Assembly: GCA_947494195.1 (NCBI GenBank)
Contig: CANLUC010000003.1
Location: forward strand, 62,001 to 126,000
Origin: an uncultured Nesterenkonia sp.
Lineage (GTDB): Bacteria > Actinomycetota > Actinomycetes > Actinomycetales > Micrococcaceae
Direction: 5' to 3'
DNA length: 64,000 nucleotides
Shown here: one piece after another, positions 15,234-20,818 of the stretch
Layout of the letters: each line of letters opens with the position of its first letter
How positions within the stretch are numbered: position 1 is the stretch's first letter
The notes under the pieces: model-generated
What the model was told of the DNA's origin: nothing
Seen by the model: only the letters and a program-made list of their open reading frames with translations
The model's database searches: none
Position numbers and translations under genes: made by a program

Positions 15234-15260
15234 GGAATAACTCGGCCGTGCTCTAGAGTT
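15234..15260 (+). promoter_or_regulatory. Candidate SigR-type plus housekeeping promoter of rbpA
   Basis: GGAAT at 15234-15238 and GTT at 15258-15260 are 19 bases apart, close to the GGAAT-N18/19-GTT pattern of the thiol-stress factor SigR of Streptomyces, where rbpA is a known SigR target. TAGAGT at 15253-15258 overlaps it and could serve as a housekeeping -10 element. No sigR gene is seen in this window. Confidence 0.45.
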
Positions 15261-15303
15261 GTACACCGAGAATAAGTCTGCCCATCACACTGGAGGAATA
15301 TCG

Positions 15304-15645
15304 ATGAGCGATCGCAGCCTGCGTGGCATGCGCCTCGGCGCACAGTCCATGGAAACCGAGCAAGGTGTCGAGCCGGCGCCCCGCCAGGAGATCGAGTACC
15401 GCACCGAAGATGGTGAGATCATGCGAGTGATGTTCTCCGCCGAGGCTGAGGTGCCCGCCACGTGGGTCTCCCCCACGGGCAAGGAGGGTCTGCGCGTCGA
15501 TGTGGACCGTCCCGAGGTCGAGCCGCAGAAGGCCGTCCGAAGCCACTGGGACATGCTGCTGGAGCGGCGCTCCACAGAAGACCTCGAGGTGATCCTCGAG
15601 GATCGACTCAAGCTGCTCCGGGAGCGCCGCGGCGAAGCCGCCTGA
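15304..15645 (+). CDS. rbpA: RNA polymerase-binding protein RbpA
   Basis: An actinobacterial transcription factor that binds RNA polymerase and group 1/2 sigma factors and stabilises the open complex. The 113-residue protein has the typical start MSDRSLRGMRLGAQSMETEQ, the basic linker region, and the C-terminal sigma-interacting helix WDMLLERRSTEDLEVILEDR. GGAGGAATATCG precedes ATG 15304, which sets the start (the frame is open upstream). The middle domain has no cysteines, so the zinc site found in Streptomyces RbpA is absent, as I remember for other Micrococcaceae. It is convergent with ppm, an arrangement also known next to rbpA in mycobacteria. Confidence 0.95.
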   Translation: MSDRSLRGMRLGAQSMETEQGVEPAPRQEIEYRTEDGEIMRVMFSAEAEVPATWVSPTGKEGLRVDVDRPEVEPQKAVRSHWDMLLERRSTEDLEVILEDRLKLLRERRGEAA

Positions 15646-15729: not shown

Positions 15730-16476
15730 TCAGCTCCCGGTCAGCCGGGACTTCAAGGTCCTGGCCCGCGCGGCGAGGCCCCATCGGGTCACGTTGATCA
15801 TCGCCTCGGCGATGATGTCCGAGCTCATCTTGGACACTCCCTGGGTGCGCTCGACGAATGTGATCGGCACCTCGGCGATGGTCTTGCCCATAGTGGCCAC
15901 GCGGAAGGTCATGTCCACCTGGAAGCCGTAGCCCACCGATTCGATGCTGCTGAGATCGATCTCCTCGAGCACCGAGCGCCGGAAGACCCGGAAACCTGCT
16001 GTGATGTCGCGGACCTTCAGGCCCAGCAGGGTGCGTGAATAGAGGCTGCCGGCACGCGAGATGGCGACGCGATGCAGCGGCCAGTTCACCACCGAACCGC
16101 CCGGCACCCAGCGCGAGCCGATCACGAGGTCGGCCTCATTGATCTTGGCCAGCAGGCTCGGCAGCTGCTCGGGCTGATGCGATCCGTCGGCATCAAGCTC
16201 GACGAGGATGTCATAGCCCGCCTCGAGCCCCCAGCCGAACCCGGCGATATAGGCCCCGCCCAGTCCGTTCTTGGAGGTGCGGTGCAACACGTGGATCTGG
16301 GCATCCTGCCCGCTCAGCTCGTCTGCGAAATCACCGGTTCCGTCGGGGCTGTTGTCGTCGACGATGAGCACATCAGTCTCCGGCACCGCAGCGCGAAGCC
16401 GCTCCACCGTGCCGGGCAGCGCGTCGATCTCGTTATAGGTGGGGATGATCGTCAAGATCTTCACGTGGTGTCTCAA
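15730..16476 (-). CDS. Polyprenol monophosphomannose synthase (GT2 family)
   Basis: Transfers mannose from GDP-mannose to polyprenyl phosphate at the inner face of the membrane, supplying mannose for lipoglycans and protein O-mannosylation. The 248-residue protein has the GT-A fold signatures IIPTYNEIDALPG, VDDNSPDGTGDFA, the ELDADGSHQPEQL metal-binding region, and the VIGSRWVPGG block. It is a soluble DPM1-like domain without the acyltransferase domain seen in mycobacterial Ppm1. The start is TTG 16476 or GTG 16464 (before KILTIIPTYNE); neither has a well-spaced binding site. TAGACT on the minus strand at 16511-16516 is a likely -10 element. Confidence 0.92.
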   Translation of the reverse strand: MRHHVKILTIIPTYNEIDALPGTVERLRAAVPETDVLIVDDNSPDGTGDFADELSGQDAQIHVLHRTSKNGLGGAYIAGFGWGLEAGYDILVELDADGSHQPEQLPSLLAKINEADLVIGSRWVPGGSVVNWPLHRVAISRAGSLYSRTLLGLKVRDITAGFRVFRRSVLEEIDLSSIESVGYGFQVDMTFRVATMGKTIAEVPITFVERTQGVSKMSSDIIAEAMINVTRWGLAARARTLKSRLTGS

Positions 16477-16536: not shown

Positions 16537-17796
16537 TCAGCTGGTGCGCGGATGCACCTGGGCGCCATCGATGACCGTGGCGCGGAGCACCGGCAGCGTC
16601 TCGCCATCGAGGTACGGCAGCAGCGGTGTGCGCGCACGCACATCGGTGCTCCAGGCGGCGGTCCGGGAATCCGGTGTCTGCACGGCCAGGGAATCCACCT
16701 CCCAGATTCCGTAGGTCGCCCGGGCCCCGGGGTCCAGCTGGGCAGCGGTGGCCGCAGACCCGCTGGCCTCCGGCAGGGACCTGTACGCCCCGCGGGTCTG
16801 GGCGTTGAATCCAGCCCGCACCGAGACCGGATCCTGTGCGTGGTGGACGTGGCGCGTCACCACGGCCCACGGGTTCTCCCCCGGTGAGCCGACTGCACTG
16901 ACCGGCACGCCGACGCTCAGCGCCGTCGCCAGGTGACCGCGATCCCTGATGAGCACCTGGACCCCGGTGTTGAGCAGCGCCTCCCAGTCCTGGCGTTCTG
17001 CGGAGTCGAAGCCGACAAGCACGGTGGGCAGCCCGCCCGGGGTGCTGCGGCGCTGTGCGCGCATCCCCGCGGTGGAGTCCACCAGCGCGGCGACCAGCGC
17101 CGCAGGAGCCGGGGCCTGGGTGCGCGTCGAAGTCGTTCCTTCCTCTGACACACGCAGGAGCAGCTGACGTTTCGCCTGAGCCGCGAGCAGTCGGACCTCG
17201 TGCAGCTGGTCCAGGACCTCAGCGACCAGCAGCTGGACCGCAGCGGGGCGGTCCAGCAGCAGATCCACCGGCTCGAGCAGGGAGAAGACCGTGCCCAGAG
17301 CTGCCAGCGCATCATCGGCGTCGAGCAGACCCAGTTCGGTGAGCGTGACCACCGGGTAGGCGCGCACCGCGTGCGACGCCGCCGCGGAGAAGACCGACTG
17401 AAGCGCCACGGCGGCCGACGGCTCGCTCAGGCGTGCGGCGCTGAGCTCCACGTTCAGCCGCACGGCCCCGCAGCCCTGGACTGCTGCCGCGTCCAGGGCC
17501 TGCACCGCGGCAGCGTCCAGTCCCCGGCCCTTCGCCGTGTCCGTCGCAGCGTCCGCCCCGGACGGGCCGTCACCCACGACGTCCGCCCAACCGACGAAGG
17601 CCGGTGCCACCAGAGCCCGGTCGAGGTCCTGGACCTCCAGGTCGGAACCGTCGAAGGTCTCCGCCGTCTCCGCGGAGCCGACCCAGGCGATCAGCCCGTC
17701 TTCGACGAGCATGGCGTCCGCGTACGGCTCGGCGGGCGAGTGGATCGTGCCGTTGGTCAGCAGCCGCGCGGGGCGTGCGGCACCGTTGTCAATCAT
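16537..17796 (-). CDS. Amidohydrolase-like protein lacking metal ligands
   Basis: A 419-residue protein with the overall plan of the amidohydrolase superfamily: an N-terminal beta-sandwich (RLLTNGTIHSPAEPYADAML), a body, and the typical C-terminal closing segment (ATYGIWEVDSLAVQTPDS). Where true enzymes have PGFVDxHxH, this reads APAFVGWADVVG, so the HxH pair is missing. The later metal-binding His and Asp motifs are also not seen. It is probably a non-catalytic derivative or an enzyme with another function. ATG 17796 is supported by GGAGGAGCC. It overlaps the stop of the helicase gene by 8 bases, so the two are translated from one message. Confidence 0.75.
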   Translation of the reverse strand: MIDNGAARPARLLTNGTIHSPAEPYADAMLVEDGLIAWVGSAETAETFDGSDLEVQDLDRALVAPAFVGWADVVGDGPSGADAATDTAKGRGLDAAAVQALDAAAVQGCGAVRLNVELSAARLSEPSAAVALQSVFSAAASHAVRAYPVVTLTELGLLDADDALAALGTVFSLLEPVDLLLDRPAAVQLLVAEVLDQLHEVRLLAAQAKRQLLLRVSEEGTTSTRTQAPAPAALVAALVDSTAGMRAQRRSTPGGLPTVLVGFDSAERQDWEALLNTGVQVLIRDRGHLATALSVGVPVSAVGSPGENPWAVVTRHVHHAQDPVSVRAGFNAQTRGAYRSLPEASGSAATAAQLDPGARATYGIWEVDSLAVQTPDSRTAAWSTDVRARTPLLPYLDGETLPVLRATVIDGAQVHPRTS

Positions 17797-20700
17797 CTGT
17801 GGGCTCCTCCAGGTTCTGATAGGCCACGGAGGAGTATGCCACCACTCCCCGGCCGATGAGCTCCACTGCTTCATGGCAGCGCGCCGCCAGCTTCGCCGGG
17901 GTATGGGGGATCTTCGCGAGCTGGTCCAAGGTGTCGATGCACTGCTTGGTCCACCGCACGAAGTCCCCGGCGGCCAGCGGTGAATCGTTCAGCGCATTGC
18001 GCAGGCTCTGGCCACCGGCCCAGGCGTACATCGGCAGGACGAGTCCGAGTTCCGGAGCCGCGGTGGGCTCGAGATGGTGGCGCTTCTCCAACGTCTCGAG
18101 TTCAGCATGAACCTCAATGCCGGTCTGGGCGGCCTGGGCGAGACGTTTGGTGGGCATGACCGGCATGGAACCCTCGTCCTCACGCTTGGCCTGGTAGACC
18201 AGCACAGTGACGAACGCGGCAAGCTCCTGGGCGGAGAGCGCTAAGAGCACGCCGCGCTCCATGAGCAGCCCGGTGAAGAGGTCCCGCTCCCCGTAGATCC
18301 GTCGCAGCTGCTGCCCCCGATCGGTCACCGCGAACTCTGCGGCGTACCACTCGTCGTCGGCGGATCCGACACTCTGCGGACCCGGTGCTGCGATCGCGTC
18401 GTGGAGCAGCTCGGGCGGTCCCACCTGGGGCATCAGCTCGGGATCCACGACCTCCATATGACCCAGTTCATGCAGGACCCCGCAGACGCGGTCGAAGATC
18501 TTCGCGATGGAGCCGGTGCGCCGATCGATCTTGACCTTCAGCTGATCGATCTCACGCTGAAGCTTCCACCCTCGCTCTGCCCAGCGCGCATGATCCTCCC
18601 GCTCGCTGCAGCCGTGGCAGGGGTGGCGCCGCAGCTGCGCCAGCAGGTCTTCGAGTGATTCAGAGTCGGGCTGCTCCTCGACGAAGCCGAAGCCCGCGGT
18701 CGGGGCGCTGCTGCGGGCCGGGACCCGCTCGTGCAGCGCCGATCGCATCGATGCGGCGAGGTCACGGCGCACCTTGGGGACCTTGACCTGCGGCTTGCGC
18801 GGAAGTCGGATGCTGGAGATCACCTCGGGAGGCTGCCCGAAGTCCTCTGCGGTGACGTTGCGGAACTTGCCATCGGTGGTGATGACTCCAGGGCGGGGGT
18901 CATGCTCCGGCGCGCTGTGCACCACGAGGGATTCGCCGAAGCCACGCTTGCCCTCCACCTCGATGATGTCCCCGGGCTGCAGGGCAGCCAGCACACGGAT
19001 GATCTCCCGCCGACGCTGCCGGTGCCTCGACTTGGCCTGGTCCTTCTCAGCCTCGTTGAGACGACGGCGCAGCGCCGCATACTCCCGGAAATCGCCCAGG
19101 TGACAGGACATCGCCTCCTCGTAGCCGGCCAGCGACGATTCCCGCTTGGCCACGTCCCGGGCGATGCCGACCACGGATCGGTCGGCCTGGAACTGGGCGA
19201 AGGAGGACTCGAGGATCGTGCGAGCGCGACGCCTGCCGAACTGTGCGGTCAGGTTCACCGCCATGTTGTAGGAGGGCTTGAAGCTCGAATTCAGCGGGTA
19301 CGTGCGTTTGGACGCCAGCCCTGCGACCTGGCGCGGATCCATGCCTGGCTGCCAGACGACGACGGCGTGGCCCTCCACGTCGATTCCGCGCCGGCCGGCG
19401 CGGCCGGTCAGCTGGGTGTACTCCCCCGGCGTGATGTCCACATGGGATTCGCCGTTGAACTTGTCCAGCTTCTCCAGCACCACGGTGCGCGCCGGCATGT
19501 TGATCCCCAGAGCCAGGGTCTCTGTGGCGAAGACGACCTTGAGCAGGCCTTCGGCGTACATGTCCTCGACGAGTTCCTTGAACGGCGGGAGCATGCCCGC
19601 GTGGTGGGCGGCCACGCCATTGATCAGCGCTTCGCGGAAGCTGTCGAATCCGAGGATCGAAAGGTCCTCCGCCGGCAGCTCCCAGCCCATCTGCTCCACC
19701 CGCGACGTGATCTCCGCCGCTTCTTCGCGGGTGGTCAGCACGATGCCGGCATTGAGGCACTGTTCCACGGCCGCCTCACAGCCCACTCGGGAGAAGATGA
19801 AGCCGATGCATGGCAGCAGCCCCTCGCGATCCAGTGCGCGGATCATCTTCGGACGGTTCAGCCGGGGGCGTCCCGCGGCGGACCCGGAGATGCCCGAGAC
19901 TTCCCCTCCCCCGCGCTTGCTGGCGGGGCTGCTGCCCGTCTGACGACGCGGGTCTCCGCCGCGGGAGCGGTCCCCGGACCCGCGGCCCGGCCCTCCGCTG
20001 GGCCCACGGTGGGGTCCGCGGCCGCGCCCGCTGCCCCGGGAGCGGTTTCCGCCGCTGCGCCGGGACATCGGTGCCTGACTGTGGTGGGCCAGCCGCTGAA
20101 GTTCGGGATTGACCAGGGTGCCGGGCGCGCCGTCGTCCTCGGAGACGAAAAGGTCATGGAGCTGGTGGTCCACCAGCATGTGCTGGGTCAGCGGAACCGG
20201 GCGGTGCTCGGAGACGACCACCGAGGTCTCTCCGCGCACCGTGTCCAGCCAGGCGCCGAACTCCTCCGCGTTGGAGACCGTCGCTGAGAGGGCGGCGACC
20301 TGCACATGTTCGGGCAGATGGATGATGACCTCTTCCCAGACGGCGCCACGGAATCGGTCCGCCAGGTAGTGCACCTCATCCATCACCACGTAGCCGAGGT
20401 CGCGGAGGGTCGCAGAGTCCTGGTAGAGCATGTTGCGCAGCACTTCGGTGGTCATCACCACGATCTGTGCCTCGGAGTTGATCGACGTGTCGCCGGTCAG
20501 CAGTCCCACACGCTCGGCGCCGTGATCCTCCACCAGCTCCTGATACTTCTGGTTCGACAGGGCCTTGATCGGCGTCGTGTAGAAGGTCTTGGTGCCGTGG
20601 GCCAGGCCCAGATGAACCGCGAACTCGCCCACGATGGTCTTGCCTGCCCCGGTGGGAGCCGCGACCAGCACGGCTCGACCCGCCTCGAGATGGCGGCATG

Positions 20701-20818
20701 CCTGGAGCTGGAAGTCATCCAGGTCGAAGGCCTGGGACTGGCGGAAGACGCCGAGCTGAGACTTGGCCTCTGCTGCTCGTCGACGTGACTCTGCGTAGCG
20801 CTCGGCCGGTGAACTCAT
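17789..20818 (-). CDS. helY: DEVH-box RNA helicase of the SKI2/MTR4 type (HelY-like)
   Basis: A 1009-residue ATP-dependent helicase, probably acting on RNA. Walker A is APTGAGKT (residues 54-61), Walker B is DEVH (147-150), motif III is SAT (178-180), and motif VI is in YTQLTGRAGRRGID. The C-terminal half holds the DSHCT domain of SKI2/MTR4/HelY helicases. Residues about 251-305, between the two RecA domains, form a Gly/Arg/Ser-rich insert that may bind RNA. A CHGC pair lies near residue 730. The ATG at 20818 is divergent from the MFS gene. The amidohydrolase-like gene overlaps its 3' end. Confidence 0.92.
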   Translation of the reverse strand: MSSPAERYAESRRRAAEAKSQLGVFRQSQAFDLDDFQLQACRHLEAGRAVLVAAPTGAGKTIVGEFAVHLGLAHGTKTFYTTPIKALSNQKYQELVEDHGAERVGLLTGDTSINSEAQIVVMTTEVLRNMLYQDSATLRDLGYVVMDEVHYLADRFRGAVWEEVIIHLPEHVQVAALSATVSNAEEFGAWLDTVRGETSVVVSEHRPVPLTQHMLVDHQLHDLFVSEDDGAPGTLVNPELQRLAHHSQAPMSRRSGGNRSRGSGRGRGPHRGPSGGPGRGSGDRSRGGDPRRQTGSSPASKRGGGEVSGISGSAAGRPRLNRPKMIRALDREGLLPCIGFIFSRVGCEAAVEQCLNAGIVLTTREEAAEITSRVEQMGWELPAEDLSILGFDSFREALINGVAAHHAGMLPPFKELVEDMYAEGLLKVVFATETLALGINMPARTVVLEKLDKFNGESHVDITPGEYTQLTGRAGRRGIDVEGHAVVVWQPGMDPRQVAGLASKRTYPLNSSFKPSYNMAVNLTAQFGRRRARTILESSFAQFQADRSVVGIARDVAKRESSLAGYEEAMSCHLGDFREYAALRRRLNEAEKDQAKSRHRQRRREIIRVLAALQPGDIIEVEGKRGFGESLVVHSAPEHDPRPGVITTDGKFRNVTAEDFGQPPEVISSIRLPRKPQVKVPKVRRDLAASMRSALHERVPARSSAPTAGFGFVEEQPDSESLEDLLAQLRRHPCHGCSEREDHARWAERGWKLQREIDQLKVKIDRRTGSIAKIFDRVCGVLHELGHMEVVDPELMPQVGPPELLHDAIAAPGPQSVGSADDEWYAAEFAVTDRGQQLRRIYGERDLFTGLLMERGVLLALSAQELAAFVTVLVYQAKREDEGSMPVMPTKRLAQAAQTGIEVHAELETLEKRHHLEPTAAPELGLVLPMYAWAGGQSLRNALNDSPLAAGDFVRWTKQCIDTLDQLAKIPHTPAKLAARCHEAVELIGRGVVAYSSVAYQNLEEPTDD

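Follow-up and report, generated by a model that had tools for sequence, protein, structure and literature searches.

The locus behind helY

The window, a stretch of 64,000 nucleotides, belongs to a Nesterenkonia genome of 2.78 Mb (Micrococcaceae). Its minus strand carries an ATG-initiated gene of 419 codons and a stop (16537..17796), whose frame reads unbroken from 17796 to 16537. The gene overlaps the 3' end of a helicase gene (17789..20818, minus strand) by 8 bp (ATGATTGA, 17789..17796, minus strand), in agreement with the translational overlap with an SKI2-type helicase described in the initial annotation. A Shine-Dalgarno-like GGAGGAG lies within the same 3' end, 7 nt before the ATG (17804..17810, minus strand). 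The helicase contains DEAD, Helicase_C and DSHCT domains (Pfam), and from this make-up we take it to be HelY, a Ski2/Mtr4-like RNA helicase. The next gene along the conserved locus codes for a glycosyltransferase, presumably Ppm1 (15730..16476, minus strand), and a convergent gene, which we assume to be that of RbpA (15259..15645, plus strand, start codon provisional), ends the locus; both were assigned by locus comparison.

The Pfam search with the window protein yielded a single match below threshold, to the composite domain PF22039 (20 bits vs. a cutoff of 25.5), and the gathering score of PF07969 was not reached. No family was found in NCBIfam, and the PDB sequence search gave one chance-level match (E 1, a Rieske subunit). 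The scan of genome contigs matched a single relative, the ortholog of Nesterenkonia sp. Act20, and a structure prediction from the two-row alignment of these proteins had a mean pLDDT of 35. Searches of open-licence literature listed no paper on the gene or on any inactive amidohydrolase linked to a helicase. Among the full-length relatives at this locus, two matched PF07969 (8.7e-67 and 1.6e-59), and one matched PDB 3icj at 2.2e-32. Judged from the common locus and from the profile match of the Nesterenkonia group (E 1e-46), the window gene is an ortholog of this full-length YtcJ-type amidohydrolase of the PF07969 lineage.

Genera and families are coded g and f (g1 being Nesterenkonia), and loci and genomes L and G. 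The search across the family gave a match in 291 of 295 genomes; in Nesterenkonia, 23 of 23 genomes matched over most of the length. Three of the four non-matching genomes (g11) carry a full-length copy behind helY; in the fourth, G271, the helicase piece was also unmatched. The survey set consists of 103 helY-side loci from 103 genomes and 32 genera, drawn from 112 loci and covering roughly one in three of the 295 genomes: g1 with its full 23, every other genus with one or more, and extra ones of g3, g4, g6 and g14. Second copies of genomes represented by another locus (L024-L028, L030, L031 and L052) were left out, as was L100 (G133), which begins inside the gene at a contig end. Copies over 500 aa were classed as full-length and those under 500 aa as trimmed; the resulting 59 trimmed and 44 full-length copies are not a frequency, because the sampling is uneven across genera.

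The end of helY lies just upstream in all 103 loci, within 230 nt of the chosen start. A Ppm1-like gene is found downstream in 101 loci and an RbpA-like gene in 97, with short flanks among the misses. The order of helY, the gene and ppm1 is common to the window gene and the full-length copies of other genera. The start codon was taken as the one nearest to the helY stop, a rule that makes overlap counts approximate and accounts for three artefactual full-length starts at -63. By this rule, the gene overlaps helY in 22 of the 23 Nesterenkonia loci, in 37 of the 59 trimmed copies and in 10 of the 44 full-length ones. The chosen start falls after the helY stop in trimmed copies of g3 (5/5), g14 (7/8) and g6 (8/11). 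Thus, the overlap is no general mark of trimmed copies.

Loss of the metal ligands and shrinkage of the middle

The six ligand positions (HxH, bridging Lys/Asp, two His and the final Asp) were set on the full-length copy L038 by motif and by sequence alignment to PDB 3icj. All six are occupied in each of the 44 full-length copies (H, H, Asp, H, H, D), and the initial annotation's statement that relatives keep the HxH pair therefore holds for the full-length members of the family. None of the six is present in the window protein. Its HxH region reads PAFVGWADV vs. PGFVDSHAH in L038 (lost site APAFVGWADVVG, residues 64-75, 17572..17607, minus strand), and alignment places the lost final-Asp site at VSAVGSPGENPW (16867..16902, minus strand), where the relative L028 has VCLGSDAPVTEQSPW. 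The absence of metal ligands first noticed in the window protein extends to the genus: HxH is missing from 23 of 23 Nesterenkonia copies, 22 of which have no ligand at all and one a single chance match. The 59 trimmed copies together hold no ligand position in 49 cases, one in 7 and two in 3. As a separate observation, the bridging position is Asp (GDLxxDG) in 44 of 44 full-length copies, e.g. L038:2970-4655, vs. Lys (VKLFVDG) in 3icj, which would be unusual if real.

By the start rule, the full-length copies measure 531-613 aa (n=44) and the trimmed copies 331-454 aa (n=59), and none of the 103 loci has a copy between 455 and 530 aa. Lengths and conserved columns delimit an N-terminal conserved part in the window protein (residues 1-68, 17593..17796, minus strand) and a C-terminal one (residues 293-419, 16540..16920, minus strand). 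Across the survey these parts span 57-118 aa (with start-codon noise) and 117-149 aa, respectively, and their lengths fail to separate the two forms. The stretch from the HxH site to the last-Asp site, the former barrel region (16921..17592, minus strand, from length comparison and profile alignment), has 224 aa in the window protein vs. 339-372 aa in full-length copies, a loss of at least 115 residues; in trimmed copies overall it has 138-239 aa. The fold plan, initially described as kept from end to end, is thus preserved at most in part: the N- and C-parts hold their lengths, and the ligand-bearing segments are cut.

Profile comparisons showed that each of the eight trimmed groups matches the full-length profile end to end (E 1e-41 to 1e-72), with 171 template columns unmatched for the Nesterenkonia group. 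Most of the unmatched columns fall into three zones, with borders that are approximate and least sure for g3 and g21. The first lies after HxH at template columns ~77-208 in five groups, is aligned further along in g21 and g3, and is in pieces in g15, where it is trimmed only in part. The second lies somewhere in columns 253-312, around the bridging-Asp loop, and the third at columns ~389-417. Alignments of close relatives within g6 and for g15 showed that the GWDES...RVDVHS segment, the DGxxGSRTA...PYxD loop and the FDAxWGGxxGLYxxRLG loop have disappeared or become shorter, with the flanking segments and the C-part retained. In each of the eight groups, the segments that bore the ligands have shrunk or vanished. 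By these alignments, the cuts fall in broadly similar segments across groups, and the ligands carried there suggest that the cut zones are on the active-site side. Unlike the YtcJ-like amidohydrolases (PF07969, Amidohydro_3; PDB 3icj and 3igh), to which its likeness is homology by descent, the window protein has no ligands, a shorter middle and no PF07969 match at the gathering score, and it carries a WSTD insertion.

The reduced barrel could have acquired a different active site in Nesterenkonia. Six His, Asp and Glu residues are invariant among the 23 Nesterenkonia copies (H19, D264, E272, H288, H316 and D385), and H288, H316, D264 and E272 speak for such a new enzyme. However, columns conserved to at least 93% among the trimmed copies are confined to the N-part or to Trp310 onwards, with none between, which, together with the reduction of the ligand-carrying segments in every group, makes a new enzyme unlikely.

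Recurrence and direction of the loss

The HelY tree, built from 60 family members and 4 outsiders by a quick method without bootstrap, needs at least four changes for the trimmed state, in a clade of g1, g2, g4, g14, g16 and g21 (SH-aLRT 96) and in g3, g6 and g15. The loss, which the initial annotation regarded as specific to one lineage, is therefore common to a six-genus clade and recurs outside it, and a loss in Nesterenkonia only is rejected. A constraint that unites all 29 trimmed rows carries a cost of 179.5 log units (p-AU 1.7e-6), or 114.1 log units (p-AU 1.8e-6) when g15 is omitted; the groups were known before this constraint test, which weakens the p values. A tree of the gene itself, based on the columns of the N- and C-parts (71 rows, 168 columns), needs at least five changes. 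It groups the trimmed copies of g6 with the intact ones of that genus (99/95) and separates the Nesterenkonia clade (97/98); g3 and g15 branch from an unresolved fork in which most copies are intact. More than one loss is well supported by these sequence trees, and the exact number of losses is unsure because some branches are long.

The broadly similar places of the cuts in the eight groups are what would be expected if the trimmed form arose once and then spread between lineages by locus exchange, and the fork in the gene's own tree leaves the nearest relatives of g3 and g15 unsettled. However, the five changes in that tree, the placement of trimmed g6 and of the Nesterenkonia clade, and the only partial trimming of the first zone in g15 argue against a single origin. 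We consider it very unlikely, and the constraint test on the HelY tree rejects it both with and without g15.

In other families of the order, the 1.5 kb downstream of 25 helY loci contain a relative in 7 (three of f7, three of f8 and one of three of f15) and none in 18. The relative lies directly behind helY in f8 and further along in f7 and f15. HxH is retained in both f7 copies that extend to its position, in two of the three f8 copies and in the f15 copy. Since these copies keep HxH, the full-length form is most probably ancestral. The remaining f8 copy (L213, G301) is of full length with DAHVR in place of HxH; its second His is gone and the remainder is kept, possibly an early step of loss.

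Two further observations concern the locus. In L157 and L170, which are from families without the gene, helY is followed by another gene, which we take to resemble an apolipoprotein N-acyltransferase; tblastn with the L170 piece gave no match within the window. In g6 (L032-L034, L041, L044, L056, L086-L092, L106 and L107), the host genomes measure 3.6-3.9 Mb for the four intact copies and 2.3-3.4 Mb for the eleven trimmed ones, as if loss accompanied smaller genomes; the small-genome genera g12 and g13 are intact nonetheless.

Constraint and a possible role without catalysis

The dN/dS ratios were estimated by the simple Nei-Gojobori method for the three closest pairs per genus with a synonymous difference of 0.02-0.62, giving 13 trimmed and 16 full-length pairs. 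The middle has ratios of 0.25-0.86 in the trimmed pairs and of 0.07-0.36 in the 16 full-length pairs. The ratio of the C-part is below that of the middle in all 13 trimmed pairs and amounts to 0.08-0.28 in 12 of them; only a g3 pair whose synonymous sites are almost saturated goes higher (0.52). For the N-part, 12 trimmed pairs gave a value, which is smaller than that of the middle in 8 and larger in 4. All 23 Nesterenkonia copies and all 59 trimmed copies can be read through from N-part to C-part in a single open frame, and the internal stops flagged for some Nesterenkonia matches are their terminal stops.

A gene that has lost catalysis and is drifting towards a pseudogene would show a middle that evolves fast and varies in length, as that of the trimmed copies does. 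However, the open frames, the constrained C-part and the retention of the gene by all six genera of the Nesterenkonia-holding clade in the genomes examined make such decay very unlikely, and a simple pseudogene is rejected on the intact frames and the constraint. Thus, the intact frame of 419 codons was rightly taken to speak against a decaying pseudogene. Alignment with Micrococcaceae homologues, the check proposed in the initial annotation, confirmed the ligand loss and revealed no frame damage in the 59 trimmed copies.

The C-part contains a family-specific insertion motif, WSTDVRARTPLLP (16615..16653, minus strand), defined by conserved columns and motif counts; VQ...WSTDxRAxTPxLPxL is among the columns at least 93% alike. 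WSTD is found in 58 of 59 trimmed copies, with FSTD in the remaining one (g16), and in 37 of 44 full-length copies; the looser pattern (W/F)S(T/S)DxR(A/S) covers 59/59 and 41/44, respectively. Copies of other families show WSTD in one intact f7 copy, WNPEAR in three f8 copies and nothing alike in the f15 copy. The motif in the intact f7 copy and its altered form in f8 indicate that it probably precedes the loss. It is absent from three intact g11 copies (L078, L082 and L083), the C-terminus of L078 being strongly divergent. Since these copies and the f15 copy do without it, the motif is not essential everywhere. Among 30 amidohydrolase loci from 18 genomes, five represent the helY-linked gene, all with the motif, whereas none of the 19 paralogs with a frame judged readable has it, the other six being in the wrong frame and uninformative. 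The host genome has further amidohydrolases, one of them full-length at 178 bits.

The gene might also be kept for reasons of expression, with translation through it linking the expression of helY and ppm1, and its protein product being of little importance. The frequent overlap with helY in Nesterenkonia and the nearly constant Ppm1-like gene next to it would suit such coupling. However, the concentration of amino-acid constraint in the motif-bearing C-part is left unexplained, and the gaps to helY and to ppm1 vary widely in size; we regard expression coupling as quite improbable.

Inactive relatives of amidohydrolases are known in other systems. According to PMC7053772, the aspartate transcarbamoylase of Pseudomonas needs an inactive amidohydrolase-type homolog, the pseudo-dihydroorotase (pDHO), and the fungal pDHO domain keeps its size and fold without zinc ligands. 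Like pDHO, the window protein is an amidohydrolase-type homolog free of metal ligands and is predicted to be inactive; unlike in pDHO, whose partner is proven and whose fungal domain is of full size, its middle is cut and its partner is a guess. CRMP-4 is described in PMC4051505 as having two of six metal residues left and no dihydropyrimidinase activity seen, with both termini forming a beta-sandwich. By analogy with the CRMPs, which have likewise lost metal residues, the termini of the window protein are expected to build such a sandwich; unlike the window protein, the CRMPs are eukaryotic, related to dihydropyrimidinase and keep a typical barrel. The assignment of the N-part to the N-half of a composite beta-sandwich draws on the weak PF22039 match and on this amidohydrolase architecture (PMC4051505) and is provisional. 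With its ligands lost and its frame and constraint kept, the window protein is, as judged from sequence, a pseudoenzyme of the pDHO and CRMP kind.

The same loss occurring several times at one locus suggests a job without catalysis, and the repeated loss of catalysis in a gene that is always present suggests a bifunctional ancestor whose sandwich and insertion bind something. A retained and possibly non-enzymatic role, as initially proposed, is the best reading of the sequences. We favour, with rather more confidence than doubt, an enzyme that, besides its catalysis, had a binding role independent of it; the catalysis would have been shed repeatedly, and the trimmed descendants would now serve as a binding partner or scaffold. 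A working YtcJ-type amidohydrolase would have become fixed behind helY in the family ancestor, and this enzyme would also have had a binding role through the composite beta-sandwich of both termini and the WSTDxRAxTPxLP insertion. Its hydrolase activity may have turned dispensable in the window lineage and separately elsewhere. The metal ligands and the segments on the active-site side would then have been lost, selection would have held the sandwich together with a diminished core of the barrel, and the present function would be performed without catalysis.

HelY is the first candidate for the partner because of its adjacency and, in Nesterenkonia, the overlap. A partnership with the co-translated RNA helicase would fit the conservation of the locus and is the leading guess, held at well under even odds; that ppm1, too, is a neighbour counts against it. 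Excerpts of PMC7157823 list HelY among ribosome-associated proteins in Streptomyces, and those of PMC7157823 and PMC8931766, on HelY in Streptomyces and Mycobacterium, mention no amidohydrolase partner. A bolder and more doubtful version would turn the helY-linked amidohydrolase into a subunit or regulator devoted to the Ski2/Mtr4-like helicase, docking by the beta-sandwich and WSTDxRAxTPxLP, with the hydrolase shed in parallel at least four times to leave a minimal helicase adaptor. If this adaptor were real, the cut surfaces would show which part of the enzyme mattered.

The protein is a trimmed pseudoenzyme whose descent is known; what is new is that losses took place in parallel at a single locus linked to a helicase. 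In the pDHO and CRMP precedents, a single inactive relative stands next to active ones. In this bacterial family, by contrast, apparently live and dead forms share one locus, with several separate losses and broadly similar cuts. The label 'amidohydrolase' would mislead for the trimmed copies. These losses amount to a deletion series made by nature, which indicates where the non-catalytic work is done, and, if HelY is the partner, the protein would be a bacterial cofactor for a Ski2/Mtr4-like helicase.
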